From positions 3,100,001-3,164,000 of the forward strand of contig NZ_PGES01000001.1 in assembly GCF_002797895.1 (NCBI RefSeq): a DNA stretch of 64,000 bases, written 5' to 3'. Positions within the stretch are counted from its first letter, which is position 1. Each line of letters starts with the position of its first letter. Of this stretch, positions 13 to 14,146 are shown one piece after another. A program made the translations under genes and the position numbers. This DNA is from Janthinobacterium sp. 67. Lineage in GTDB: Bacteria; Pseudomonadota; Gammaproteobacteria; Burkholderiales; Burkholderiaceae_D. The notes under the pieces are model-generated. The model was not told where the DNA came from. It did no database searches and worked only from the letters and a program-made list of their open reading frames with translations.

Positions 13-1053
13 ATGATTGTTCTTGGCGTCGAATCCTCCTGTGACGAAACCGGCCTGGCCTTGTACGACACGCAACGCGGCCTGCTGTCGCACGCCCTCT
101 ATTCGCAAGTCGCCATGCACGAGCAATATGGCGGCGTGGTGCCGGAACTGGCGTCGCGCGACCATATCCGCCGCGCCATCCCGCTGCTCGAAGAAACCCT
201 GGCCAAGGCCGGCATCACCCTGCCAGAGATCGACGCCATCGCCTACACGCAAGGTCCTGGCCTGGCTGGCGCGCTGCTGGTCGGCTCCTCCGTTGCCTGC
301 AGCCTGGGCCTGGCCATCAACAAGCCGGTGCTGGGCATCCACCATCTGGAAGGCCATCTGCTGTCGCCCTTGCTGGCGTCCGAGCCGCCGGAATTCCCGT
401 TCATCGCCCTGCTGGTGTCGGGCGGCCATACGCAGCTGATGCGCGTCGACGGCGTGGGACAATACACGATGCTGGGCGAAACGCTCGATGATGCGGCCGG
501 CGAGGCGTTCGACAAGTCGGCCAAGCTGCTGGGCCTCGGCTATCCGGGCGGCCCCGCCATTTCGCGCCTGGCCGAATTCGGCGATCCGCTCGCATATAAA
601 CTGCCGCGCCCCATGCTGCATTCGAAGGATTTCAATTTCAGTTTCTCGGGCCTGAAGACGGCCGTGCTGACCGTGGTGAAAAACCATGACGAAAAAGTCA
701 TCGCGAATATCTGCGAGCAGGACAAGGCGAATATCGCGCGCGGCTTCGTCGACGCCATCGTCGACGTGCTGACGGCCAAATGCGTGTCGGCCCTCAAGCA
801 CACGGGCTTGAAACGCCTGGTGATCGCCGGCGGCGTGGGCGCCAACGCGCAATTGCGCGCCTCGCTCAACGCGGCGGCCGCCAAGAAGCGCTTCAAGGTG
901 TATTACCCGGAGCTGGAATTCTGTACCGACAACGGCGCCATGATCGCCTTTGCCGGCGCCATGCGCCTGCAAATCAATCCCGACGCCGCCAAGCACGATT
1001 ACTCGTTCAACGTGCGCCCGCGCTGGCCGCTGGACGAGATCCGGGAAATTTAA
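13..1053 (+). CDS. tsaD: tRNA N6-adenosine threonylcarbamoyltransferase TsaD
   Basis: TsaD (formerly Gcp/YgjD) transfers the threonylcarbamoyl group from threonylcarbamoyl-AMP to A37 of ANN-decoding tRNAs, working in the cytoplasm with TsaB and TsaE. The 346-residue protein has the normal bacterial length. It opens with the family signature GVESSCDET, has the metal-binding HLEGH at residues 111-115, the nucleotide-site SGGHT at 136-140, and the C-terminal DNGAM motif. The ATG is 12 bases from the window edge, so the upstream context is not visible. tsaE, another member of the same pathway, lies separately at about 51.2 kb. The gene converges on eutC across a palindromic repeat. Confidence 0.97.
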
Positions 1054-1161: not shown

Positions 1162-1935
1162 TTACTCCGCCAGCAAAAAATTCCGTCTCAATACCACGCT
1201 ACCCTCCGCCACTGTTTCATCCTTCAATCCCACACCCGACAACTGCCGGCTGAACGCCTGCGACAGCAAATAATGCAGCCGGTACGCCGCCTGCGCATAT
1301 GCCAGCCCCTCCGGACGCACGTTCGAAATGCAGTTGCGGCGCTCGTCCAGTAAACCCACTGTCGGCGCCCACGTCAGGTACAGGCCCAGGCTGTCCGGGG
1401 AACTCAAGCCCGGGCGCTCGCCGATCAGCACCAGCACGGCGCGTGCCCGCAATAACTCACCCACCTCGTCGCCAATGGCCACCCGTCCCTGCGCCACGAT
1501 GTGCAGCGGCGACAGGGTCCACGCCTCCAGCGCCAGCCGTTCGCGCAGGGCCGCCAGGAAGGGCGCCGCGTGGCGCTGCACGGCCAGCGCCGACAGGCCG
1601 TCGGCCGCCACCAGCGCCAGGTCGACTCCCTTGCCACCTCCGGCCAGCCGCGCGCGTGAAACCTCGTCGAGCCGGCGTCCCAGGTCGGGCCGTTGCAGAT
1701 AGTCGGCGCGCGTGGCGGCCGCGCTGTGCAGCGGCACGCAGTCTTGCCCTTGCGCGGCCAGGACGCGTGCCAGAACGTCGCCATCGAGCGCCAGGTGCAC
1801 GGCGTCGCGCGCCTGCGCGTGGGCCAGCTGGAACGCCAGCTGCGCCTTGGTCGGCACGCTCACGCCGCGCCGTCCCAACGCGATGCGCGCCGCCGTATGC
1901 GCGCGCAGCGCTTGCCAAGGAATGGCTTCGTCCAT
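1162..1935 (-). CDS. eutC: Ethanolamine ammonia-lyase small subunit EutC
   Basis: This is the light chain of adenosylcobalamin-dependent ethanolamine ammonia-lyase, which converts ethanolamine to acetaldehyde and ammonia. The protein is 257 residues. The C-terminal half carries typical EutC sequence, including [22 protein letters not shown] and the later [17 protein letters not shown] stretch. I start it at the ATG at 1935, eight bases after the eutB stop, because the longer open frame upstream lies inside eutB. No eutA reactivase, eutR or microcompartment shell genes are visible nearby, so this is a stand-alone eutBC pair. Confidence 0.95.
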
Positions 1936-1943
1936 GCATCCTC

Positions 1944-3332
1944 CTAGTCGTCCAGGCGCAGCAGGGCCGCCTGGAAGGCCGGCGCCAGCGCTTCGCTCAA
2001 GCGGCCCTGCGTATCCGTGATCCGCATGCGCGCCAGCCAGGCCGCAAATTCCGGCGCAGGGCGCAGGCCCAGCACCCGGCGCGCATACAGGGCGTCGTGG
2101 AACGAGGTGCTCTGGTAGCCGAGCATGATGTCGTCCGCGCCCGGCACGCCCATGATGAAATTGCAGCCGGCCACGCCCAGCATGGTCAGCAAGGCATCCA
2201 TGTCGTCCTGGTCCGCCTCCGCGTGGTTGGTATAGCACACGTCACAACCCATGGGCAGCCCGAGCAGCTTGGCGCAGAAATGGTCTTCCAGCCCCGCACG
2301 CATGATCTGCTTGCCGTCGTACAGATATTCGGGGCCGATGAAGCCGACGACGGAATTGACCAGCAGCGGCTGATACGCGCGCGCCACCGCATAGGCGCGC
2401 GCTTCGCACGTCTGCTGGTCCATGCCATGGTGGGCGCCGGCCGACAGCGCGCTGCCCTGCCCCGTCTCGAAATACATGACGTTGTTGCCCACCGTGCCGC
2501 GCCCCAGCGACAGGGCCGCCGCCCGCCCCTCGGCCAGCAGAGACAAATCGATGCCGAAGCTGCGGTTGGCCGCCTGCGTGCCCGCCACCGACTGGAACAC
2601 CAGGTCGACGGGAGCGCCGCGGCGTATCGCCTCGATGGTATTGGTAATGTGCGTGAGCACGCAGGACTGCGTGGGAATTTCATACTGCTCGATGACGGCG
2701 TTGAGCAGGTGCAGCAGCGACACCACCTGCGCCACATTGTCGGTGGCGGGATTGATGCCGATGACGGCGTCGCCGCTGCCCAGCAACAGGCCATCGAGCA
2801 TCGACGCGGCAATGCCTGTGGCGTCGTCCGTCGGGTGGTTCGGCTGCAAGCGCGTGGACAAGCGGCTTTCCAGCCCCAGGGTATTGCGAAAGGCCGTCAC
2901 GACCCGGCACTTGCGGGCCACCAGCACCAGGTCCTGCAGGCGCATGATTTTCGAGACGGCGGCCGCCATTTCCGGCGTGATGCCGGCGGCGACCTGGGAC
3001 AGCGTTTGCGTGTCCGTCGCATCATCGAGCAGCCAGTCGCGAAAGTCGCCCACGCACAGGTGGGAAATCGGTGCAAAGGCGGCGCGCGCATGCGAGTCGA
3101 TGATCAGGCGCGTGACCTCGTCCTCTTCGTACGGCACCAGCGCCTCGTTGAGGAACAGCGATAGCGGCACGTCGGCCAGCGCCAGCTGCGCCGCCACCCG
3201 CTCGCGCGCGCTGGCTGCCGCCACGCCGGCCAGCACGTCGCCCGAACGCAGCGGCGTGGCCTTGGCCAGCAGCTCCTTCAGGCTGGCGAACGCATAGGTA
3301 TGGCTGTCTATCGTATGGCTGAAGCGGGGCAT
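1944..3332 (-). CDS. eutB: Ethanolamine ammonia-lyase large subunit EutB
   Basis: This is the TIM-barrel catalytic chain of ethanolamine ammonia-lyase. It is 462 residues long, the usual family length. Recognisable family stretches include [33 protein letters not shown] and [17 protein letters not shown]. The frame stays open far upstream, but the protein homology begins at the ATG at 3332, which has a strong GGAGG ribosome-binding site about six bases ahead. eutC follows after eight bases, so the two are clearly co-translated. The gene starts 35 bases after the TIGR01777 reductase gene on the same strand and may be read from that operon. Confidence 0.96.
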
Positions 3333-3367: not shown

Positions 3368-4831
3368 CTACAGGCTGCGCAGTGCCCCTTCCAGCTGCGG
3401 ATGACGGAAGGCAAAGCCGTCGGCCAGCAAGCGGCGCGGCGCGACCCTTTGGCCTTCCACCAGCAAGTCGGCCTGCTCGCCCAGCAAGGCTTGCATGACG
3501 AAGGCCGGCGTGGGCATGAAGCTGGGGCGGTGCAGCACGGCGCCCGCCACCTGGGCGAAGCGGCGCTGCGCTATGGCTTCCGGCGCGCAGAAGTTGTATG
3601 CGCCGCTCACGGCCTGTTCTTCGCTGCGGCGCGCCAGATGGGCGATGCCGCGGATCACGTCGCGCACGTGCACCCACGTGACCCACTGTTTGCCGCTGCC
3701 CAGCGGGCCGCCCACGCCGAAACGGACCGGCAAGAGCATCTGCGGCAGCGAACCCTGGTGGCCGAAGACGAGGCCAAAGCGCATGCAGCCCACCTGCACG
3801 CCATAGCGTTCCGCTTGGCGCGCGGCCGCTTCCCATTCCTGGCACAGCTGCGACATGAAGATGGCTTGCGGTGCGCTCTCCTCCGTCAATTCCGTGTCGT
3901 CGCCATGCGGCTGCACGCCGTAGTAGCCGATGGCCGATGCCGACAGCAGCACCCGTGGCTTGTGCTGCGCGCGGGCGATCCACGCCACCAGGTCCTGCGT
4001 CAGCGCCACTCTGCTGCGGCGCAGGGCCGCCTTGCGCGCGTCCGTCCAGCGATGCCCGACGATGCGCGCACCGGCCAGGTTGACCACCATGTCGATGCGC
4101 TGCGCATCCGACAATGCGTCGAACGACTGGATGCAACGCACCTGGCCATCGAAGGTCCACGCGGCCTGCTTGGGCTGGCGCGTCAGCACCGTCACGGCAT
4201 GGCCATCGGCCAGCAAGGCGGTCACCAACTGCTGGCCGATGAAACCCGTGGCGCCCGTCACCAGCACGGATTGCGGCGTGCTGGCAAAGCGCAGGTGTTC
4301 CTCTTGCTCTGCCGTCTCCTGCACCTTGCGCCGTCCCAGCTGCCACACGGCATACGCGTCGCGCAGGCCGGACAAGCCCACGCCCACGCCGCACAGGGCG
4401 AGGAAGACGCTGAGCCAGCCATACGGCTGCCACACGAGGGCCGTCGGCAAGGTGGCCCATTCGCTGCTGTTCAGGGCCAGCAAGGCGATGAAGGCGCCCG
4501 CGTTAATCGCCAGCACCGTGTGCGTGACCCGCTCCGTGGCGGGCAGGAGGCGCGTCTGGTCTTCGACGACGAAGTCCCACAGGGTCAATACGATTTCCAC
4601 GCCAAACACGATGACCAGCACCCAGGCCCAGGCGCCATGCCACTCCCACGCGGCCAGGCCCACGAACAGCAGGCTGTAGATCAGGGCGCGCGTCGCATGG
4701 ATCGTCAATTCGAGCCGCGCGGACGCCTTTTGCGGCAGCGCTTCCGTGATTTCATGGTGGTAGATGGTGTCGAAGGCGCCCAGGCAGCCTTGCGCGGCCA
4801 TCAGTTGCAGGGCCAGCAGATGCGTATTCAT
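3368..4831 (-). CDS. TIGR01777-family SDR with N-terminal membrane domain
   Basis: This 487-residue protein has two parts. Residues 1-160 contain about four hydrophobic segments (near 50-66, 68-88, 105-120 and 138-156). After a charged linker, the C-terminal 300 residues are a YfcH/TIGR01777-type extended short-chain dehydrogenase with the NAD(P) motif TGATGFIG at 192-199 and the family string WVTWVHVRDVIRGI. Typical TIGR01777 proteins are about 300 residues, so the membrane portion is an added domain. The ATG at 4831 overlaps the DUF4166 stop by four bases and has GAGGAGA ahead of it. The substrate is unknown; its context suggests a membrane lipid. Confidence 0.88.
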   Translation of the reverse strand: MNTHLLALQLMAAQGCLGAFDTIYHHEITEALPQKASARLELTIHATRALIYSLLFVGLAAWEWHGAWAWVLVIVFGVEIVLTLWDFVVEDQTRLLPATERVTHTVLAINAGAFIALLALNSSEWATLPTALVWQPYGWLSVFLALCGVGVGLSGLRDAYAVWQLGRRKVQETAEQEEHLRFASTPQSVLVTGATGFIGQQLVTALLADGHAVTVLTRQPKQAAWTFDGQVRCIQSFDALSDAQRIDMVVNLAGARIVGHRWTDARKAALRRSRVALTQDLVAWIARAQHKPRVLLSASAIGYYGVQPHGDDTELTEESAPQAIFMSQLCQEWEAAARQAERYGVQVGCMRFGLVFGHQGSLPQMLLPVRFGVGGPLGSGKQWVTWVHVRDVIRGIAHLARRSEEQAVSGAYNFCAPEAIAQRRFAQVAGAVLHRPSFMPTPAFVMQALLGEQADLLVEGQRVAPRRLLADGFAFRHPQLEGALRSL

Positions 4832-5472
4832 GGTGTCTCCTCGTGATTTTGCGGTGCGGCCGATTCGCGGAACACGCCCGCCTGGGTGAACGTGGTGCCG
4901 AACAGGGCGTGGCGGATCTCGATGCGGATGTTGAACTGCTGCGGCGTCTCGTTGCGGTGGCACAGATAGGTCTTGCCGGGCGTGAGCACGCCCGGCAGCG
5001 GCAGGCGCCAGCCGAAAAGATCGAGAAAATAGCCGTCGCTGGTGAAGTGCAGATTGCCGTCCTCGACGTGCAGCACCAGCTTCATGCCCAGGCCCATGCC
5101 CACGTATTCGAGCACTTCGCCTTTCGCGCTTTCCGCCATGTAGGACGTGAAGCGGATCGGCGCGCGCCCATGCAGGCGGTAGGTGCGCTGCTTGAAAATG
5201 AACGGGCAGCCGGGGCGCGAATAGACTTCGATATCGACGGGGAAGTCGTGATCGTCATGCGGGATCAGAGCGCCATCGATGAAGGGGCGCGTGAGCCAGC
5301 CGAGGAATTTTCCCAGGCGCGAGCTGGTCAGTTCACTGAGCTCACCCCGGTAATACAGGGGCTGGCCCGGCGCGGGATTTTTCTCGAAGCGGCGGCGGAT
5401 ATCCGGGTGCAGCGTGAGCCACTGCGCGCCCATCACCTTCTTGAACAGTTCTCCTTCCGAGGGGCCGTTCAT
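4828..5472 (-). CDS. DUF4166 domain protein
   Basis: This 214-residue protein matches DUF4166 by its opening (GELFKKVMGAQWLTLHPDIRRRF) and the run of conserved glycine and aromatic residues that follows. No signal peptide or membrane segment is visible. The biochemical function of DUF4166 is not established. In some bacteria the domain occurs next to or fused with an SDR, and here it overlaps a TIGR01777 SDR by four bases downstream and the GbsR regulator by four bases upstream. I infer that it works with that reductase, perhaps in binding or delivering a lipid substrate. Confidence 0.85.
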   Translation of the reverse strand: MNGPSEGELFKKVMGAQWLTLHPDIRRRFEKNPAPGQPLYYRGELSELTSSRLGKFLGWLTRPFIDGALIPHDDHDFPVDIEVYSRPGCPFIFKQRTYRLHGRAPIRFTSYMAESAKGEVLEYVGMGLGMKLVLHVEDGNLHFTSDGYFLDLFGWRLPLPGVLTPGKTYLCHRNETPQQFNIRIEIRHALFGTTFTQAGVFRESAAPQNHEETP

Positions 5473-6023
5473 GATTTTGCGCGCTTGCCAGCTTTGTCTT
5501 CCGGGCTGAGGAACTTGGCCACCTTGCCCCCCATCGACAGCATGCGCTGCAGGGTCGCCGGCGGCAAATTCTTGTAGTCGCTATAGGTGCTGCTGAGCAT
5601 TTCCAGGAAGGCCAGCACCTCGCCCATGCGTTCCAGGGTGGCCGGTGGAATGGCCGCATCGTGCTCGCCCTCGATCGCGCATTCACGCAGCACCGTCAGC
5701 GTGGGATCGATCTCGCGCCGCTTGCGCTCCTCCATGATGACGCGGAAGATTTCCCACACATCCTGCAGGGCGACGAAATGGTCGCGCCGGTCCCCCATCA
5801 CGTGCGTACTGCGCGCCAGGCCCCAGCTTTGCAATTCCTTCAGGCTGTTGCTGACGTTGGAGCGGGCCACGTTCAGGCTGGCCGCGATGTCTTCCGCCGT
5901 CAACGGTTCATTGGCCAGGAACAGCAGCGCGTGGATTTGCGCCACCGTACGGTTGACGCCCCAGCGGGTGCCCATTTCGCCCCAGTGGAGGATGTACTTT
6001 TGAGTAGTCGGGCTCAGTTCCAT
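5469..6023 (-). CDS. GbsR/MarR-family transcriptional regulator
   Basis: This 184-residue winged-helix regulator has the GbsR-type N-terminus (HWGEMGTRWGVNRTVAQIHALL) and a recognition region, LTAEDIAASLNVARSNVSNSLKEL, at about residues 41-64. The C-terminal half is helical and probably forms the dimer. It is the first gene of a tightly overlapping group (GbsR, DUF4166, TIGR01777). A promoter with a perfect inverted repeat over its -10 region lies directly upstream, so autorepression is likely. The inducing ligand cannot be read from the sequence. Confidence 0.9.
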   Translation of the reverse strand: MELSPTTQKYILHWGEMGTRWGVNRTVAQIHALLFLANEPLTAEDIAASLNVARSNVSNSLKELQSWGLARSTHVMGDRRDHFVALQDVWEIFRVIMEERKRREIDPTLTVLRECAIEGEHDAAIPPATLERMGEVLAFLEMLSSTYSDYKNLPPATLQRMLSMGGKVAKFLSPEDKAGKRAKS

Positions 6024-6034
6024 GGCTTTCTCTT

Positions 6035-6080
6035 ATTTCTGTCGTTACAGAAATGTAAGACGAAACAGAAACCGAGTCAA
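6035..6080 (-). promoter_or_regulatory. gbsR promoter with overlapping operator
   Basis: Reading the minus strand there is TTGACT (6080-6075), a 17-base spacer and TACATT (6057-6052). The perfect inverted repeat ATTTCTGT-CGTT-ACAGAAAT (6035-6054) begins inside the -10 box and covers the start-site region. A further TTTCTG half-site lies in the spacer. This layout is typical of a self-repressed MarR-type promoter, and the operon's own regulator is the obvious candidate ligand. Confidence 0.72.
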
Positions 6081-6090
6081 GCCCGATTCG

Positions 6091-7209
6091 TCAAGACTTT
6101 GCGGGTGGCAGGCCCATGGCGCGCAGGAACTGCTGCTGCGAGGCGTGCAGCTGGCCGTAACCGAGTTCGCGGTAGACGAGGCCGTGGCGCGGCGCCAGTT
6201 CGGCCAGGATGCGCGCCAGCGCCGGGTAGTGGCGGTGATTCCAGGTGGGGAACAGATGGTGCGTCAGGTGCAGGTTCAAGCCGCCGAGCCAATAACCGAG
6301 CCAGCGCAGCGCGCGCGGTTTCGGCGTCCAGTCGCAGGCCGTATAAAACGTGTGCTGGTACCAGTCGTGCGGCAGGGTACCGTCCTGGCCCGGCTGGAAG
6401 AATTCCACTTCGGCCCAGTGCGTGCCGAGGATCAGCGCCACCAGCGCGCACGAGGCGATCATCTGGCCCAGGAAATACGCGCCCAGCACCACGTTCCAGG
6501 CGAGGCCGTGCTGCTGCAGCACCCACATGGGCAGCGCCAGCACCAGCGCCACGTGACCCAGCTTCCAGCCGAGGAACGACAGCCAGCCGCGCCAGCCCTG
6601 CAGGCGGCTGTGCGCGGCCACGGGCGTCTTGCCGAAGCGGTCCAGCCAGTCGCCATACCAGTTCAGGTACGGCAGCGACAGGGCCGCCACCACGGGCCAG
6701 TACAGGTACTGGTAGCGGTACTGGGGCGACCAGCTTTGGAACGGCGTCTGGCGCAGGAAGGGGTTCGGTTCCGTGTCGAGGTCATAGCCTTCCACGTTCG
6801 CATACGTGTGATGAAAGTGCACGTGGCGGATGGTCCAGAAATCCGTGTCCACGCCCACGGGCAAGCCCACCAGGCGTATCAGCACGCGGTTCAGGAAACC
6901 GCGGCGGAAGATGGCGCTGTGGGCCGCATCGTGCAGGGTATTCATGGCCAGCGCCATGGCCGCGACCAGGCAAGCGACGTAGCTGGCGACAAACGGCCAG
7001 GTGTCGTCGGCATTCAAGGCCAGCGCATACAGGCCCACCGTCAGCGCGGCCAGGAACATGGTTTTCGCATGCAGGCGCGCGTCGCCGAAGCGGTGCCTTC
7101 CTTCGTCCGCCAGGTAGGCGTCGGCGCGGGCGCGCAATTCGCGGCGGAAGGCGGAATCGCGGGCGGGCTGGAAGCGCAGCGGCGGCAACGAAGGTACAGG
7201 CTGCGTCAC
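6091..7209 (-). CDS. Membrane fatty acid desaturase
   Basis: This is a di-iron integral-membrane desaturase or hydroxylase of 372 residues. All three histidine boxes are present: HDAAHS near residue 122, HVHFHH near 160, and HLTHHLFP near 317, with hydrophobic spans between them. I choose the GTG at 7209, which overlaps the preceding stop in a GTGA arrangement. The longer ATG start would run well into the upstream gene. It is the last gene of the lipid operon before the GbsR promoter. An acyl chain or the lipid made by the operon is the likely substrate; regiospecificity is unknown. Confidence 0.9.
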   Translation of the reverse strand: MTQPVPSLPPLRFQPARDSAFRRELRARADAYLADEGRHRFGDARLHAKTMFLAALTVGLYALALNADDTWPFVASYVACLVAAMALAMNTLHDAAHSAIFRRGFLNRVLIRLVGLPVGVDTDFWTIRHVHFHHTYANVEGYDLDTEPNPFLRQTPFQSWSPQYRYQYLYWPVVAALSLPYLNWYGDWLDRFGKTPVAAHSRLQGWRGWLSFLGWKLGHVALVLALPMWVLQQHGLAWNVVLGAYFLGQMIASCALVALILGTHWAEVEFFQPGQDGTLPHDWYQHTFYTACDWTPKPRALRWLGYWLGGLNLHLTHHLFPTWNHRHYPALARILAELAPRHGLVYRELGYGQLHASQQQFLRAMGLPPAKS

Positions 7210-8321
7210 GCGCGCGTCCCCGCTGCGGCAGGCAACCACAAGCGGCGCGCGCCATCGAGGCCATGCGCCAGCAGCGCGGCCAGAAACACCATGCCCCATA
7301 TGTCGCGCGCGCCATACCAGCCCAGGTACAGGGCCGGCATGGCCAGCGCGATGGCCACCCAGGCGATGGCGCCCCAGCGGCGCGCATCGGACAGGCCGCC
7401 CAGCGCCAGGGTGCCGCCGAAGATCAGCGCGAACAGGATCGCCTGCTGTGCGCCGGCCAGCACCGCCTCATGGTTGACGTAATAGATCACGAGGCCGAAC
7501 AGGATCACGCCGCCGATGCCGATGAACAGCTCGGGCACGTGGAAAGTGCAGCGCGACTGCCAGTGGGGAAAGCGCGCGCGCAGCCATGTAAATAGTTTGC
7601 CGTTGCTGGCCAGCAGCGGGTTGTGCGTGGGTGTCATGCCCTTCACGCCATAGCGCATTTCCACACCCTCGAGTTCGGGCTGGAAGCTGCCAAACAGCCT
7701 GTCCCACAGCAGCAGGGTGCCGCCGAAATTGCGGTTGATGTAGCGTTTATCCGTGCCGTGGTGCACGCGGTGGTGCGAGGGCGTGACCATGAATTTATCG
7801 AGGATGCCCGACTTGTTTACCAGCGCATTGTGGTTGTAGAACTGCACCGTGTAATGCAGGGACGAGACGACAAGGAAGATTTCCAGCGGCACGCCCAGCA
7901 CGGCCAGGATGGCGATGAAGGGGAAATTCGTCAGCGACGAATACCAGGAATTGCGCACGCCCAGCGACAGGTTGAAATGCTCGCCCTGGTGATGCACCAC
8001 GTGCACGGCCCACAGCAGCGGGATTTTATGGTGCAGCCGGTGCATCCAGTAAAAGCACAGGTCCCAGGCAAAAAACGCGAATATCCACTGCGCCACCACG
8101 GGCCACTGGTCGACGACGTGCAGGTTCACATGGCGCAGCAGCAGGGCGAAGGCCGCCACTTCCACGCCGCGAAATACCCACATCAGGATATGGCCGGAAT
8201 TGAGATTGAAGATCACGTCCTTCCACGGCACGGGTGTCTTGCGTACCCATTTGAGTATCAGCAGTTCGGCCAGCACGAAGGCCAGCATGATCAGGAACGA
8301 CAGGGCAAATGGATTCATCAT
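7206..8321 (-). CDS. Sterol desaturase / fatty acid hydroxylase superfamily protein
   Basis: This 371-residue membrane di-iron oxygenase carries the superfamily histidine clusters HRLHH, HVVHH and HHRVHHGTD in the first 250 residues. A further hydrophobic C-terminal region of roughly 100 residues follows (VPELFIGIGGVILFGLVIYY onward) and is longer than in minimal members. The ATG at 8321 overlaps the PAP2 gene stop by four bases (ATGA). Family members hydroxylate or desaturate sterols, sphingoid bases or fatty alcohol ethers. With two different di-iron enzymes in one operon, the product probably receives at least two oxidative modifications. Confidence 0.9.
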   Translation of the reverse strand: MMNPFALSFLIMLAFVLAELLILKWVRKTPVPWKDVIFNLNSGHILMWVFRGVEVAAFALLLRHVNLHVVDQWPVVAQWIFAFFAWDLCFYWMHRLHHKIPLLWAVHVVHHQGEHFNLSLGVRNSWYSSLTNFPFIAILAVLGVPLEIFLVVSSLHYTVQFYNHNALVNKSGILDKFMVTPSHHRVHHGTDKRYINRNFGGTLLLWDRLFGSFQPELEGVEMRYGVKGMTPTHNPLLASNGKLFTWLRARFPHWQSRCTFHVPELFIGIGGVILFGLVIYYVNHEAVLAGAQQAILFALIFGGTLALGGLSDARRWGAIAWVAIALAMPALYLGWYGARDIWGMVFLAALLAHGLDGARRLWLPAAAGTRA

Positions 8322-8959
8322 GGTGCGGTTTTGATGGAAACGGCGCGGCGGGCAGCCAAGGATACCTGCATTTTCGCCAGCATGCCGCCGGCGATGCCAA
8401 CAGCCAGGCCGGCGGCCAGGTCGATGCTCACGTGCCGGCGCAGCGCGATGATGGCGTAGCAGATGGCCACGCCCAGCACCAGGGCCAGCGCGGAACGCAG
8501 CGGCTGGCGTTTGTCGCACAGGGCCCACACGCACAGCAAGGTCAGGGCACCGTGCAGCGACGGCAGGCAGTTTTGCGTGGAATCCGCCGCCTGCAGCATG
8601 CGCAGCGCCTGCGTGCTCCAGGCGCCGCCCTCGCCCACGGGCGGGTAGGCGAGCGTGGTCGGATACAGCAGGAACACCACGCCGCACAGGACGGCGGAAA
8701 GCGCCATGGCGCGCGCCAGCCAGCGCACGCGGGCCGCATCGGCCGCCAGGTAGGCGTACGGGATCAGGATGAAGAAAGACAGGTACAGCCAGATGGCAGA
8801 GTCGCTGTAGGGAATGGCGCGGTCGATGGCCGTCTCGGGCAGCAGTACCCCCTGTCCTTGCAGCACATCGCTGGAAAAATACACGAGGCCGACGCTGCCC
8901 CAGCCGGCCAGCAAGTGCAGCAGGCGGGAATACGGCGTCATGGTGTCTACAGATTTCAT
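8318..8959 (-). CDS. PAP2-superfamily membrane phosphatase or phosphotransferase
   Basis: This 213-residue protein has about six hydrophobic segments. Its catalytic signatures match the PAP2/Aur1-like group: CLPSLHG near residue 130 (the phosphatase C2 motif with Leu in place of Gly) and RRHVSID near 176 (the C3 His/Asp pair). It probably removes or exchanges a phosphate group on a lipid at the outer face of the inner membrane. It overlaps both neighbours by four bases, so it belongs to the operon. Sphingolipid-type head-group transfer is an alternative reading because of the PSLH form. Confidence 0.82.
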   Translation of the reverse strand: MKSVDTMTPYSRLLHLLAGWGSVGLVYFSSDVLQGQGVLLPETAIDRAIPYSDSAIWLYLSFFILIPYAYLAADAARVRWLARAMALSAVLCGVVFLLYPTTLAYPPVGEGGAWSTQALRMLQAADSTQNCLPSLHGALTLLCVWALCDKRQPLRSALALVLGVAICYAIIALRRHVSIDLAAGLAVGIAGGMLAKMQVSLAARRAVSIKTAP

Positions 8960-10260
8960 GCGGTGGCAAGACGCCGAATGCGGCGCCGTTTCATGGTGGG
9001 GTCAAAGGGAGGCAGTTCGCCGCTCGCCGTCCAGGCCAGGCCGCCGGTGGCCACGCCCAGGCCTTGCAGCACCGTTTCAAGATGCGCGCGCAGGGCGGCC
9101 AGGCCCGCATCGTCCAGCGCCGCGTGCAGCTGCAGGGCAGCGTCGCCCGTTTGCGCCAGGCGATAATCGGCGTCCAACGGCAAGGCTTGCGCAAACGCGC
9201 GCGTCAGCACATCGGCAAACACGGCAACCGGTTCACCGCCGTTCGCCGACGGCAAGGATGGCAAGAGCAGCATATCGTCGCAGCGCCCTTCGATGCCGTC
9301 GATGGCGCGCGTGGCGCGGCCGCACGGGCATGGCGTGGCGCGCGCGATCAGGATATCGTCCAGGCGATAGCGCACGATGGGTTGCGTGATGCGCGTAAAG
9401 TCCGTAATCACGGGCACGAAGCGCCGCTGTTCTGGATCGAGCCACTGCGGCTCGATGTGCACGTATTCCTCATTCAGATGCAGCACGCCGTGCTCGCAGC
9501 TGCTGGCGAGGAAACCTTCCGTGGCCTGGTAGATTTCATGCACGGCGCCGAACGCCTGCACGATCAGCGCGCGGTCCTGCGCTTCCAGCACTTCGGCCAC
9601 GGAGATGACTTTTTTCGGCGCCAGCGCCAGGCTGCCGTCGATGACGCGGAGCGCCAGTTGGCGCAGCACCTGGGCCGGCGCGACGATGACGGAGGGCCGG
9701 TATTGCGCCAGCCGCGCGCACAGCGCGTCGAACGGTTCGAACAGATCGTAAAACGCAAAGGTCAGCCACGGCGAGCGCACGGCCGTGTACAGATTGCTGT
9801 TCGCGCGCAGGAACAGCGCCACGCGCTCGCCGGAAAACAGGCCGTCGGGCAGCGCCTTGGCCAGCATCACGCCCGCCCATTGCGCCTTTTCGCGCGGGCT
9901 GACGGTAAACACGGCGCGCTTCGACGAGGTACCCGAGGACAGGCCCACCGTGATGTCGCCGACGGCCGACGTGAAGTCGCGGCTATGCTCGGCCGCCATG
10001 GCCGCATCCATCGCCTGCGCCAACGTGATTCCTTCGGTATTCATGGCGTCGAAATGCTCGAGCATCAGCGCCTTGTTCATCGTCGGCCACTGCGCCAGCG
10101 GCAGGTGGCGGTACGGGGTGAAGTAGCTACTGCGCGCGCACAGCGTGTCGATGAAACGGGCCAGTTGCCGCTGCTGGTAGACGGCCAGCTGCGCGCGGTC
10201 CGCAAAGCGCAAGCGGCGCGTACGCCAGTACGACAGCAACAGCCAGACGATACGCTTCAC
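8956..10260 (-). CDS. F390 synthetase/PaaK-like adenylate-forming enzyme
   Basis: This 434-residue member of the ANL superfamily belongs to the branch related to coenzyme F390 synthetase and phenylacetate-CoA ligase. Visible motifs are the phosphate-binding SSGTSSKR (residues 108-115), the adenine-site YQATEG, RYRLDD, and a CPCGR...IEGRCDDMLLL segment with paired cysteines that may bind metal. It should activate a carboxylate as an acyl-adenylate. No carrier-protein gene is visible nearby, so CoA or an intramolecular nucleophile is the probable acceptor. By position it could replace OleC, the ANL enzyme of olefin and beta-lactone pathways; that parallel is inference. Confidence 0.86.
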   Translation of the reverse strand: MKRIVWLLLSYWRTRRLRFADRAQLAVYQQRQLARFIDTLCARSSYFTPYRHLPLAQWPTMNKALMLEHFDAMNTEGITLAQAMDAAMAAEHSRDFTSAVGDITVGLSSGTSSKRAVFTVSPREKAQWAGVMLAKALPDGLFSGERVALFLRANSNLYTAVRSPWLTFAFYDLFEPFDALCARLAQYRPSVIVAPAQVLRQLALRVIDGSLALAPKKVISVAEVLEAQDRALIVQAFGAVHEIYQATEGFLASSCEHGVLHLNEEYVHIEPQWLDPEQRRFVPVITDFTRITQPIVRYRLDDILIARATPCPCGRATRAIDGIEGRCDDMLLLPSLPSANGGEPVAVFADVLTRAFAQALPLDADYRLAQTGDAALQLHAALDDAGLAALRAHLETVLQGLGVATGGLAWTASGELPPFDPTMKRRRIRRLATA

Positions 10261-11087
10261 GGGCGGCCCGCCACGGCAATGTAGTCGAGCGTATCTTCAT
10301 GCGTGATGCGGATCTGCGCATTGCCCGAGCGGTGCAGCTGGTGCAGCCGGTTCAGGGTGGCGTAATACGGCGCGCGCTTGTGCTGGATGATGAACGACAG
10401 TTCCGACGGTCCGCGCAGCTGCTGGAAACTTTCCGGCACCCAGGCCGCGTCCGACGCCAGCAGGGTCCAGCCGCCATCCTGCAGCACGAAGGCGCCCAGA
10501 TGACCGATGGCGTGGCCGGGCAAGTCGACGATGTAGATTTCTCCCGTGCCGCTGACGTCGCGCCCGTACGTGAAGGGCAGCAGGGCCGCCGGCAAGGCCG
10601 TCTCTGGCACGCTTTCCACGAAATCCAGGCGGTCGGCAATGTCGGACGGCAGCAGCTCGGGCACGAAGGCCTGGCGCACGGCGGCCACGCCGGACAGGCC
10701 GCGCACGGCATCCCAGCCCGTCTTGGACGCCATCAGGCACGCGCCGGGAAAGTCGCGCAGGCCGGCGATATGGTCGGCGTGAAAGTGCGACAGCAGCAGG
10801 GTGTGGATATCGCCGGGCGAGACGCCATGGGCGCGCAACTGACCCTGTAGCGACTCGTTCTCGTCGAAGAAAATCGGCGTCACCCACGCATACATGCGGT
10901 ACACGCCTTTCGACGTGGCGGCGCGGAAGTGTTCGGCGTAACCGGTGTCCCACAGGTACAGGCCCGCGCGCGTCTCGATCAGGTAGGCGCGCGAGGGGAA
11001 GCAGCGGCTGGCCAGCCCGCTGCCTTTCAAGACCATGCACGAAGGATGAGTACAGTGGCCGACGCGAAACGCGGTAATCCTAGCCAT
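10257..11087 (-). CDS. MBL-fold metallo-hydrolase
   Basis: This 276-residue protein has the metallo-beta-lactamase signature HFHADH at residues 101-106, followed by conserved metal-ligand regions PGHAIGH, LLASDAAW and a late ITHED. The overall pattern resembles lactonase-like MBL proteins such as quorum-quenching acyl-homoserine lactonases. The ATG at 11087 overlaps the reductase stop by eight bases, and its own stop overlaps the next start by four. A lactone or thioester hydrolase role in the lipid pathway fits the context. Quorum quenching is a weaker alternative because the gene sits inside a biosynthetic operon. Confidence 0.88.
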   Translation of the reverse strand: MARITAFRVGHCTHPSCMVLKGSGLASRCFPSRAYLIETRAGLYLWDTGYAEHFRAATSKGVYRMYAWVTPIFFDENESLQGQLRAHGVSPGDIHTLLLSHFHADHIAGLRDFPGACLMASKTGWDAVRGLSGVAAVRQAFVPELLPSDIADRLDFVESVPETALPAALLPFTYGRDVSGTGEIYIVDLPGHAIGHLGAFVLQDGGWTLLASDAAWVPESFQQLRGPSELSFIIQHKRAPYYATLNRLHQLHRSGNAQIRITHEDTLDYIAVAGRP

Positions 11088-12117
11088 TGCGCTCCTTGCC
11101 CACCTTGTGCGCCGCCGCTTCCTGGCGCATCCACTGCGCCGTGCGGGCGATGCCGTCCTGCAGGCTGACGACGGGACGGTAGCCGAGCACCTTGCGCGCC
11201 TTGGCGTTATCGAGCGTCATGTCGAAACTGAGCGCGCCGATGCTGTAGGGCGTCAGCGACGGCTCGCGGCGCGTGAAACGCGAGGCGAACTGCATCAGGC
11301 GCGCGACCATCGCCAGCACGCGGTATGGCACGCTGACGATCTCGAACGGCTGCTGCAGATGATCGCAGAACAGGGTGCGCAAGATGTCGCACAGGCGCGC
11401 CGGCTCGCCATTCGTGATGTTGAAGGCGGCGCCCGAAGCGATGGTCTTGTGCACGGTGGCCAGCCACATCGCATGCACGACGTTGTCCACATAGGTGACG
11501 TCGATGGTAGCCGCGCCGCCATTGGGCAGCGGCAGCTTGCCGCCGCGCTCCTGCAGCACCCTCGCCAGGCGCGGAATCAGGACCTGGTCGTGCGGCCCGA
11601 AGATGGCGCGCGGGCGCAGGATCACGCACGTCATGCCGCGCTGGCGGTCGACGCACTCCTGCACCAGCTTTTCCGCCATCGCCTTGCTGCGCGCATAGGC
11701 GTTGACGAAGGCGTCGGGACGGAAGGTTTCCGGCACCTCGTAGCGGTTGCGGTAGTCGAAATAGATGGCCGGGGTGGAAATGTGCACGAAGCGCGCCACG
11801 TGCAGGCTGGCGGCCGCGCGCAGCAACTGGGCCGTGGCCGTGACGTTGGCGGCGATGAAGTCGCGCTCCGCGCCCCAGGGCGAGGACAGCGCGGCGCAGT
11901 GCCAGACGGTGTCCATGCCGCGCACCAGTTCGTCGACCTGGCGCGGCGTCGCCTGCGCCAGGTCGAGCGCGACGAATTGCGCGCCCATGCGTTCGAGTTC
12001 GCGGCCCACGGCGGCGTTGCGGCCCGTGGCGCGCACTTCCACGCCCTGCGCCAGCAGGGTGCGCACGGCATTACGCCCCAGCCCGCCCGTCGCTCCCGTG
12101 ACCAGTATCCGCCTCAT
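11080..12117 (-). CDS. OleD-like NAD(P)-dependent 3-beta-hydroxysteroid dehydrogenase/epimerase family reductase
   Basis: This 345-residue extended SDR starts with the Rossmann motif RILVTGATGGLGRNAV and has the catalytic pair YARSK, with upstream STPAIYF as the serine region. The sequence looks like the 3-beta-HSD/OleD group, which reduces 2-alkyl-3-keto acids. I choose ATG 12117, with AAGGTGG about five bases ahead. It starts ten bases after the ketosynthase stop. Placed directly after a thiolase-fold condensing enzyme, it most plausibly reduces the condensation product. Confidence 0.87.
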   Translation of the reverse strand: MRRILVTGATGGLGRNAVRTLLAQGVEVRATGRNAAVGRELERMGAQFVALDLAQATPRQVDELVRGMDTVWHCAALSSPWGAERDFIAANVTATAQLLRAAASLHVARFVHISTPAIYFDYRNRYEVPETFRPDAFVNAYARSKAMAEKLVQECVDRQRGMTCVILRPRAIFGPHDQVLIPRLARVLQERGGKLPLPNGGAATIDVTYVDNVVHAMWLATVHKTIASGAAFNITNGEPARLCDILRTLFCDHLQQPFEIVSVPYRVLAMVARLMQFASRFTRREPSLTPYSIGALSFDMTLDNAKARKVLGYRPVVSLQDGIARTAQWMRQEAAAHKVGKERNG

Positions 12118-12127
12118 CACACCACCT

Positions 12128-13108
12128 TCACAGGTCAAGTATCATGCCGCCGATGGTCAGGCCAGCGGCCGTGCCCATCATCAGCAAACGCTGGCCTGCC
12201 ACGGCCCGCCCCGTCATCACCGCCTCGTGCAGGGCGGTGGGCAAGGACGCGGCCACCTGGTTGCCATGCGTTTCAAAGATCTTGATGATTTTAGCATCGG
12301 GAACGTCGAGGATGCGCGCCGCATGCGCAAGACCCAATGGGCTGGCCTGGTGCGGCACGACCACGTCGACCTTGTCCAGTCCCGCGCCCGATTCGGCCAT
12401 CAGTTCCGTCAGGAAATCCGGCATCACCTTGACGGCCAGGCGGAACACGGCCTTGCCATCCATGCGGAACAGGTAGTCGCCCGGTTCGCAGCCGTTGCGC
12501 GGATTGCGCTCGGTGCCGCCGCCGCGAATTTCGCAGTAGCGCCGCCCTTCCGGATACGTGCCCATCTTGTAGGCCCGGATGCCGGCGCTGCCGTCGCCCC
12601 GCTCGACGATGACGGCGGCGGCGCCGTCGCCAAAGATCATCGACGCTTCCGGCTCGCTCCAGTCGACGCCGCGCGAGGCGAGGTCGGACGAAACGATGGC
12701 GATGCGGCGGTAGGCCCCGCCTGCCAGCATGGACGCGGCCACGCGGAAAGCGGCCATGAAGCTGAGGCAGCTGGCGTTGACGTCGAAGCTTTGCGTACCG
12801 GGCGGCAAGCCCGCGTGTTCGGCCACGAAGCAGGCCGTGTTCGGCAAGGCCTGCTCGGGCACGCCGCAGGCGCAGATCAGCAAGTCGATGTCGGCCGGAC
12901 GCAGGCTGGCATTCTTCAGCGCGTCGAGCAGGGCGACGGCGCCCAGCTGGCTTTGCGATTCATCGGGCGCGGCGACAAAGCGCGACAGCACGCCGCTCTT
13001 GCGCAAGGTATAGCCGGCCGGGTGGCCCAGTTTCAGGTCCAGGCTGTCGGAAGTGACGCTGTGGACGGGCACGGCTTTGCCCGTCGCGATCAGGCGAACT
13101 GGAATCAT
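12128..13108 (-). CDS. 3-oxoacyl-ACP synthase III family condensing enzyme
   Basis: This 326-residue thiolase-fold enzyme has an intact Cys-His-Asn triad: Cys114 in DVNASCLSF, His253 in VVPHQASP and Asn283 in HGNQVAASLP. It ends with the family motif GTAAGLTIGGMIL. It is the first gene of the operon and lies 49 bases after the ion-channel stop. FabH-type enzymes start fatty acid synthesis; related OleA/PqsD-like members condense acyl-CoAs in specialised pathways. Being grouped with a reductase, an acyl-activating enzyme and desaturases rather than with fab genes, it is probably of the specialised kind. Confidence 0.9.
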   Translation of the reverse strand: MIPVRLIATGKAVPVHSVTSDSLDLKLGHPAGYTLRKSGVLSRFVAAPDESQSQLGAVALLDALKNASLRPADIDLLICACGVPEQALPNTACFVAEHAGLPPGTQSFDVNASCLSFMAAFRVAASMLAGGAYRRIAIVSSDLASRGVDWSEPEASMIFGDGAAAVIVERGDGSAGIRAYKMGTYPEGRRYCEIRGGGTERNPRNGCEPGDYLFRMDGKAVFRLAVKVMPDFLTELMAESGAGLDKVDVVVPHQASPLGLAHAARILDVPDAKIIKIFETHGNQVAASLPTALHEAVMTGRAVAGQRLLMMGTAAGLTIGGMILDL

Positions 13109-13157: not shown

Positions 13158-14066
13158 CTAATCGCGTGCCAATGGCGGCAATGCAACGCCGCAGTTCTTG
13201 CAGAAATTGGCATCGTCATCGAGCCCTTCTTTCAGGCACGTGGGGCAGGTACGCGTGGTGACCAGCTTGGAGCTGCGCTGTACCGTCATTTCCGCGCTGA
13301 TAATGCCGGTAGGCACTGCCAGGATGCCCCAGCCCAGCAACATCATCAGCGAGGCGATGGTGCGCCCGATGTCGGTCTTCGGCGTGATATCGCCGAAGCC
13401 CACGGTGGTCATGGTGCTGATGGCCCAGTATATCGACGTGGGAATACTGCTGTAACCATTCTCCGGCCCTTCCACGACATACATCACAGTACCCAGCAGA
13501 AAGACCACCATCATGACAAAAGACAGAAAAATGAGGATCTTGCGCCGGCTGGCCAGCAAGGCCCGCCCCAGCACCGTGTATTCATGCACATACGAGGTGA
13601 GCTTGAGGATACGGAACATGCGCAGCAGGCGCAAAATGCGCACGTCGATCAGCACGTGCGCGCCCGGCAGCAGCAAGCCGATGTAGGTCGGCACGATGGC
13701 CAGCAAGTCGATGATGCCGAAAAAACTCTTGGCGTAGCGCACCGGATGCTGCAGGCACGCCAGGCGGGCGAAATATTCGATGGTAAATAAAATGGTGAAA
13801 AACCATTCGAGCGCCGTCAGCCAGGTGCCGTAGCGCTCGGCCACGGAGGCGACACTGCTGAGCACGACCACCGTCACGCTGATCAGGATGGCGGCGATCA
13901 GCAGCAAGTCAAAAGCGCGACCCGTGCGCGTTTCCGCCTCGAAGATGACGGTGTACACCCGCTCGCGCCAGCCCCGCTCGGGCTTGCCAAATTTTTGCTG
14001 CGTTTCCTGCGCCGCCAGCTGCTGCGGCGTCAGGGGCGCCGCTCCGCTCTTCGTCGCGGCTTTCAT
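13158..14066 (-). CDS. Voltage-gated-type potassium channel with C-terminal zinc ribbon
   Basis: This 302-residue channel subunit has six predicted membrane spans, including an arginine-rich S4-like helix (RILRLLRMFRILKL) and the potassium selectivity filter TTVGFGD. It ends with two CxxC pairs (CPTCLKEG...CKNCG) that form a likely zinc ribbon, an unusual tail for this family. I take ATG 14066. The frame extends to a TTG at 14111, but that stretch overlaps AT-rich DNA with the inverted repeat TATAC-AATAATA-GTATA, which looks more like promoter. The gene is adjacent to a potassium/proton antiporter, so a shared role in ion balance is plausible. Confidence 0.9.
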   Translation of the reverse strand: MKAATKSGAAPLTPQQLAAQETQQKFGKPERGWRERVYTVIFEAETRTGRAFDLLLIAAILISVTVVVLSSVASVAERYGTWLTALEWFFTILFTIEYFARLACLQHPVRYAKSFFGIIDLLAIVPTYIGLLLPGAHVLIDVRILRLLRMFRILKLTSYVHEYTVLGRALLASRRKILIFLSFVMMVVFLLGTVMYVVEGPENGYSSIPTSIYWAISTMTTVGFGDITPKTDIGRTIASLMMLLGWGILAVPTGIISAEMTVQRSSKLVTTRTCPTCLKEGLDDDANFCKNCGVALPPLARD

Positions 14067-14146
14067 GTGGTTGATATGCTCATATACTATTATTGTATAG
14101 ATAATTGACAAAGCACGGCGACACGCACTGTTGCGCTACGGCAGCA

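Follow-up and report, generated by a model that had tools for sequence, protein, structure and literature searches.

We analyzed a 64,000-nt stretch of the genome of Janthinobacterium sp. 67 (C1:3100001-3164000 of 6.4 Mb; referred to here as the window, within which the coordinates below are counted) and found a seven-gene operon whose first four genes recur as a unit in several bacterial phyla, with exchangeable partner genes. These four encode a ketosynthase (KS), a short-chain dehydrogenase/reductase (SDR), a metallo-β-lactamase-fold hydrolase (MBL), and an adenylate-forming enzyme (ANL), and are followed by three tail genes for membrane enzymes. We tentatively propose, with a probability of roughly 45%, that the operon makes a polar, oxidized long-chain lipid, in which case the quartet would build and activate a β-hydroxy lipid acid and the tail enzymes would turn it into a polar lipid. 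The acid is probably built from two acyl chains.

The operon runs on the minus strand from 13108 to 6091, with the genes head to tail in the order KS, SDR, MBL, ANL, PAP2-type phosphatase or phosphotransferase (PAP2), fatty acid (FA)-hydroxylase, and FA-desaturase. Read from the sequence, SDR and MBL overlap by 8 bases, and the MBL/ANL, ANL/PAP2, and PAP2/FA-hydroxylase junctions overlap by 4 bases each. The KS/SDR junction depends on the start codon of the SDR: with the ATG at 12117, there is a gap of 10 bases, and with the listed TTG at 12138, there is an overlap of 11 bases. The open reading frame (ORF) of the desaturase opens at 7299; judging from the sequence, an internal GTG at 7209, which overlaps the FA-hydroxylase stop codon by 4 bases, is the likelier start. 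The original prediction, made from the letters of the window, had described these seven genes and families, a Cys114-His253-Asn283 triad in the KS, and two di-iron oxidases; the genes were all found on the minus strand, the three triad residues are in place, and the His-box motifs of two membrane oxidases are present. Its near-universal overlaps of 4 to 8 bases hold at four junctions and would not hold at KS/SDR, where the ATG start, if used, leaves the 10-base gap.

Residue conservation was scored on an alignment in which the window contributed one row and most loci came from genera other than its own; the Janthinobacterium loci L043 to L061 were left out, as were L125 (for its scattered genes) and L127 (the same place as L123). 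Most of the expected catalytic residues of the seven enzymes were invariant across these loci; we took the scored residues to be catalytic or metal binding from knowledge of the families.

The KS (12128 to 13108, minus strand; 326 amino acids [aa]) is of the β-ketoacyl-acyl carrier protein (ACP) synthase III (KASIII) type (PF08545/PF08541). C114 was present in 75 of 76 rows, with one gap, and H253 and N283 were present in all 76. The best model was PRK07204 KASIII (NF005541; 335.4 bits, under the cutoff of 402), whose cutoff was cleared by the KS of a Paenibacillus quartet (424.9 bits). The window KS missed the cutoffs of the FabH model TIGR00747 (203 versus 292.1 bits) and of PRK09258/NF006720 (108.5 versus 285 bits), which we take to be the OleA model; the window's genome contained no match to the latter at an E value of 1e-60. 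A second KASIII in the same genome (C1:1999135-2000112) scored 442 bits and cleared the FabH-subfamily cutoff.

Two KS trees were prepared. The quick tree contained 66 of 119 rows (35 of 75 usable cluster KSs, 17 of 30 FabHs, 11 OleAs, 2 MxnB/CorB, and 1 further KASIII from the window's own genome), and the careful tree contained 40 rows (20, 11, 7, and 2). KS ORFs longer than 360 aa were trimmed to the last 335 residues, and locus L105, whose KS is cut at 200 aa, was excluded from both trees and from the OleA and FabH column counts. In the careful tree, the FabH rows (support, 99/98) and the OleA rows (100/100) each formed a clade of their own that excluded the cluster KSs. The comparison with OleA and FabH called for by the original prediction placed the KS in neither group, and a role as the housekeeping FabH was rejected in view of the separate genomic KASIII and of the position of the FabH rows in the trees. 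The FabH motif HQAN was replaced by HQAS in 75 of 75 cluster rows, and the FabH Arg column held Leu in 63 of 75. Position 117 of OleA is Glu, followed by Pro, in all but two of the OleA proteins covered by the part of PMC7064751 that we consulted. This column held Glu in 11 of 11 OleA rows and Leu or Ile in all 75 cluster rows, the residue of the window KS being Leu88.

The nearest solved relatives of the KS by sequence were MxnB and CorB (approximately 35% identity), and its predicted fold was nearest to the MxnB structure. MxnB and CorB are interlinking ketosynthases of the myxopyronin and corallopyronin systems, respectively, and MxnB links two chains. A grouping of the cluster KSs with MxnB/CorB had support of 95 in the quick tree (Shimodaira-Hasegawa-like approximate likelihood ratio test) and of 88/93 in the careful tree, for which approximately unbiased tests left the alternative arrangements standing. 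An HQxS motif is shared by the two; the C-H-N triad of MxnB/CorB is also present in the window KS and is common to FabH. Shared descent of the KS and MxnB is favored, short of proof. The substrates of MxnB are carrier-bound β-keto polyketide chains, according to the consulted part of PMC5724707; the descriptions of MxnB/CorB in the parts consulted make no mention of SDR, MBL, and ANL partners, unlike the setting of the window KS.

The SDR (11080 to 12117, minus strand; ORF opening at 12138) is an extended, NAD-dependent epimerase-type enzyme with GxxGxxG and YARSK motifs, likely a ketoreductase. Its best named model was OleD (NF042422), which it matched at 172.9 bits, far under the cutoff of 580; Y148 and K152 were present in 77 of 77 rows. 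The MBL (10257 to 11087, minus strand; PF00753) has seven likely metal ligands (H101, H103, D105, H106, H192, D213, and H263), each present in 77 or 78 of 78 rows, with one gapped row at the first four. Its nearest solved sequences, at weak likeness, were lactonases, i.e., N-acyl homoserine lactone (AHL) lactonases and 4-pyridoxolactonase, and it missed the cutoffs of the AiiA and AttM AHL lactonase models (44.7 versus 375 bits and 51.1 versus 390 bits, respectively). The ANL (8956 to 10260, minus strand; GTG start) is of the PaaK/F390 type and cleared the cutoff of the F390 synthetase-related model TIGR02304 (491.5 versus 251.9 bits); it had no Pfam match at an E value of 0.01 and, hence, none to PF00501. 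Residues E248, D302, K424, C311, and C313 were present in 79 of 79 rows, and R299 and D328 were present in 76 of 79. The ANL shares its motifs with TIGR02304 proteins and with the PaaK-type AMP ligases NatL2, PaaK, and AjiA1, and the best matches to its predicted fold, a poor model (predicted local distance difference test score, 68.5), were the PaaK-type ligases NatL2 and PaaK. The name coenzyme F390 synthetase comes, for this protein, from annotation only.

Of the tail genes, PAP2 (8318 to 8959, minus strand; PF14378, 40.7 bits) encodes a PAP2_3-type membrane phosphatase or phosphotransferase with PSLH and HxxxD motifs, in which H136, H176, and D180 were present in 55 of 55 rows. The PAP2_3 family includes AUR1-type phosphotransferases, and its members may transfer phospho-groups. 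As there is no kinase among the seven genes, phospho-group transfer is as likely here as the phosphate removal put forward in the original prediction. The FA-hydroxylase (7206 to 8321, minus strand; PF04116, 94.3 bits) is a membrane oxidase of the sterol-desaturase/FA_hydroxylase family, with seven checked box histidines in 53 of 53 rows and H183 in 43 of 53. The membrane FA-desaturase (6091 to 7209 with the likely GTG start, minus strand; PF00487, 106.8 bits) carries the boxes HDAAH, HVHFHH, and HLTHH, whose eight histidines occurred in all 51 rows; an additional histidine, H311, occurred in 32 of these. Searches of the PDB with the three tail proteins returned nothing useful. A sterol or hopanoid pathway, for which family names alone speak, was rejected (HpnA, 138.8 versus 367.65 bits).

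Scanning one genome per species yielded 148 confirmed loci, of which the best 80 were examined; 20 of these (L043 to L062) were from Janthinobacterium, the genus that also supplied the nearest named proteins, and the rest were from other genera. All seven genes occurred in the same order in 63 of the best 80 loci, and the KS-SDR-MBL-ANL quartet occurred in 78, the two exceptions being L079, which is cut by a contig end, and L076 (Budvicia), which is without the KS. The gene order is thus not unique to this strain. Carrier genera include Chromobacterium, Aquitalea, Ralstonia, Cupriavidus, Pectobacterium, Pseudomonas, Serratia, Erwinia, Enterobacter, and Escherichia. The distribution is patchy, given that the TIGR02304 cutoff was cleared in 30 of 37 genomes of the window's genus and in 7 of 398 genomes of a phylum-wide draw (the window's genome included in both), as well as in 1 of 337 genomes in another class, that one being the centre genome itself.

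Among complete Escherichia coli genomes, 671 of 5426 (approximately one in eight) carried at least 80% of the cluster in one place. E. coli Nissle 1917 has the cluster at 100% identity over 6882 bases, and ATCC 25922 was among the carriers listed for a 3900-base query. The cluster of E. coli CFT073 is flanked by narI on one side and by the tyrT/purU region on the other. One E. coli "plasmid" record (NZ_CP141085.1, 81272-96525) holds the cluster together with narGHI, purU, and rssAB; these genes match the chromosomal surroundings in CFT073, so the record is probably a piece of chromosome.

The quartet was also found in Bacillota, Fusobacteriota, and Alphaproteobacteria, with other companions. 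On Paenibacillus and Pontibacillus plasmids, an ATP-grasp gene lies between KS and SDR; the Shinella quartet is accompanied by GNAT, Rieske, and ATP-grasp genes, a Paraburkholderia plasmid quartet by ATP-grasp and GNAT genes, and the Ketogulonicigenium and Paracoccus quartets by a divergent sulfotransferase nearby. Nine Enterobacterales loci have an extra SDR gene and two glycosyltransferase (GT) genes, one GT21 and one GT1 type. In Fusobacterium, in a record without annotation, an SDR gene and a GT21 gene (PF13506, 69.9 bits) lie just upstream of genes in the order SDR-MBL-ANL-KS. In Noviherbaspirillum, the operon continues into a gene for a 1002-aa nonribosomal peptide synthetase (NRPS)-like protein with adenylation and carrier domains. 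The N-terminal 420 residues of this protein had no Pfam match and were taken for a putative acyltransferase from an HxxxD motif read by eye; relatives of this part occur in L067 and, as a 435-aa ORF, in L078. Over 99 loci (L043 to L141, with L127 included), counting any match of more than 60 bits anywhere in the fetched locus and not just beside the quartet, we found GT21 in 10, ATP-grasp in 12, GNAT in 8, Rieske in 8, and the NRPS-type N-domain in 3.

Pairwise distances among the quartet proteins were strongly correlated (rho, 0.94 to 0.95 for the six pairs; highest of 50 label permutations, 0.25), and pairs that included a tail gene gave 0.58 to 0.91. These values were computed with L125, L127, and Janthinobacterium loci L043 to L061 left out, and vertical descent contributes to rho. 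The quartet behaves as a tighter unit than the tail genes, and vertical descent explains part of this.

In the Enterobacterales and Fusobacterium loci, we also observed small proteins of 180 to 215 aa encoded after the GT21 gene (L103:13340-13909, L115:16182-16724, and L128:7211-7858). They had no convincing Pfam match, and the likeness between the Enterobacterales and Fusobacterium proteins was judged by eye. A hopanoid link of the HpnI-like GT of Kosakonia was rejected (88.7 versus 310 bits).

From these data, we infer the substrates, step order, and product of the pathway as follows. The KS would join a pair of acyl thioesters, or an acyl thioester to a β-ketoacyl thioester, as its likeness to MxnB/CorB suggests by analogy, and reduction by the SDR would turn the resulting β-keto group into a hydroxyl. 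Acting as a thioesterase or lactonase, the MBL would free the acid, which the ANL would reactivate as acyl-AMP or acyl-coenzyme A (CoA) for transfer. In the version of the pathway encoded in the window, the FA-hydroxylase and the desaturase would oxidize the membrane-located chains, and PAP2 would remove or transfer a phospho-group. Several observations weigh against this reading. Five approximately unbiased tests of three alternative tree arrangements, two of them run both ways, rejected none; a pattern search of the Noviherbaspirillum protein for acyltransferase motifs gave no match; and no KS lies upstream in the Budvicia locus. On Pseudomonas sp. Leaf58 pBASL58 (L125), the KS, oxidoreductase, MBL, and ANL genes are scattered over approximately 10 kb. 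The figure of 63 of 80 also leans to near kin, as the best 80 of the 148 loci include the 20 from Janthinobacterium. On the pBASL58 megaplasmid, the genes lying between the scattered ones are mostly hypothetical.

The original prediction had read the operon as resembling an olefin/β-lactone (ole) pathway with two parts replaced and a long-chain lipid or hydrocarbon as the product. On such a route, a 2-alkyl-3-hydroxy acid would be made into a β-lactone by the ANL, followed by opening by the MBL or decarboxylation to give a hydrocarbon. Part of what it described stands: the condensing, reducing, adenylating, and hydrolyzing enzyme classes are all present, as are the His boxes and the conserved gene order, and the KS is apart from FabH. 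As in OleABCD, a condensing thiolase-fold enzyme, an SDR with OleD as its best named model, and an adenylating enzyme stand in one operon, so that the classes equal those of OleA, OleC, and OleD. Membership in the ole pathway itself was rejected. The KS failed on the OleA score, lies outside the OleA clade, and lacks the OleA Glu; OleC is a PF00501-type ligase, whereas the ANL is a TIGR02304 protein with no PF00501 match; the SDR scored well short of the OleD cutoff; and OleB is an α/β hydrolase, of which there is none among the seven genes, the MBL being present instead. The window operon also adds PAP2 and two oxidases to the OleABCD set. The hydrocarbon likewise falls out of favor because the quartet is accompanied elsewhere by glycosyl-, amino-, or sulfo-transfer genes; partner families that glycosylate, sulfate, or couple to amines suggest a functionalized acyl or hydroxy lipid. 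We therefore regard ole-like chemistry as improbable.

A FabH-like route, in which the KS would condense acyl-CoA with malonyl-ACP, the SDR would form a 3-hydroxyacyl product, the MBL and ANL would release and reactivate it, and the tail enzymes would decorate a single-chain hydroxy lipid, is unlikely in view of the FabH clade that excludes the KS and of the changed HQAN motif and Arg column. That the KS might make a pyrone or β-keto product like MxnB, with a lactonase-like MBL limiting a small lactone or pyrone signal, accords with MxnB/CorB as its nearest solved relatives by sequence, with MxnB as the nearest by fold, and with the AHL lactonases and 4-pyridoxolactonase nearest to the MBL. 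This is quite improbable: no receptor or transporter was a constant neighbor among the loci examined, the presence of PAP2 and of two oxidases of the membrane is more in keeping with membrane lipids, and the SDR would presumably remove the ketone that a pyrone needs. The proposal of a polar, oxidized long-chain lipid also has a broader, distinctly unlikely form, in which the quartet would be a general bacterial module that joins acyl chains through a C-C bond, without serine palmitoyltransferase, into a ceramide-like lipid with two chains and a β-hydroxyl, for decoration by ceramide-decorating families. PAP2_3, FA_hydroxylase, desaturase, and GT21 families also decorate ceramides, which is the basis of this idea; the tails share Pfam families with ceramide-tailoring enzymes (AUR1-type PAP2_3, SUR2-type FA_hydroxylase, desaturase, and GT21/HpnI). 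No serine palmitoyltransferase is encoded among the window's seven genes.

Downstream, the operon adjoins a MarR/GbsR-like regulator gene (5469 to 6023, minus strand), which was not counted as core because it lies beside the operon only in Janthinobacterium among the fetched loci. Just upstream of this gene, at 6036-6053, is a perfect palindrome, TTTCTGT-N4-ACAGAAA, the single match in the window against a chance expectation of 0.02 with up to two mismatches allowed; it may be an autoregulatory operator. A gene for a DUF4166 protein (4828-5472) overlaps the MarR-like gene by 4 bases, and the two genes adjoin the operon in the fetched Janthinobacterium loci (with no MarR match in L056) and not in the others. 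A potassium-channel gene (13158-14111), on the same strand as KS, lies 49 bases upstream of it. As no promoter-like site was found in the 49-base gap, cotranscription with the operon is possible. Among the fetched loci, all three neighbors are kept with the operon in Janthinobacterium and not in other genera. Farther away, the window encodes the ethanolamine ammonia-lyase light chain EutC (1162-2238, minus strand; 301.9 bits) and TsaD (13-1053, plus strand).

Full-text searches of open-license papers gave no description of the cluster or of its product among the matches listed. In the part consulted, a transposon screen for virulence in Pseudomonas syringae pv. actinidiae tabulates a mutant in a "Coenzyme F390 synthetase" (IYO_RS29540; PMC9823363), linked to the window ANL by name only. 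The enzyme families are known, and the combination and the product are undescribed as far as these open-license papers show.

The seven-gene lipid operon is present in about one-eighth of complete E. coli genomes, including those of the probiotic Nissle 1917 and the common reference strain ATCC 25922, and carriage by these workable strains makes the product directly searchable. If the proposal is right, the four-gene core, which recurs across several phyla and whose partners are exchangeable, would be a new lipid-building module. If the ceramide-like form were to hold, Janthinobacterium, Fusobacterium, E. coli Nissle 1917, and bacteria associated with plants would all have an undescribed class of lipid in the membrane or at the cell surface.

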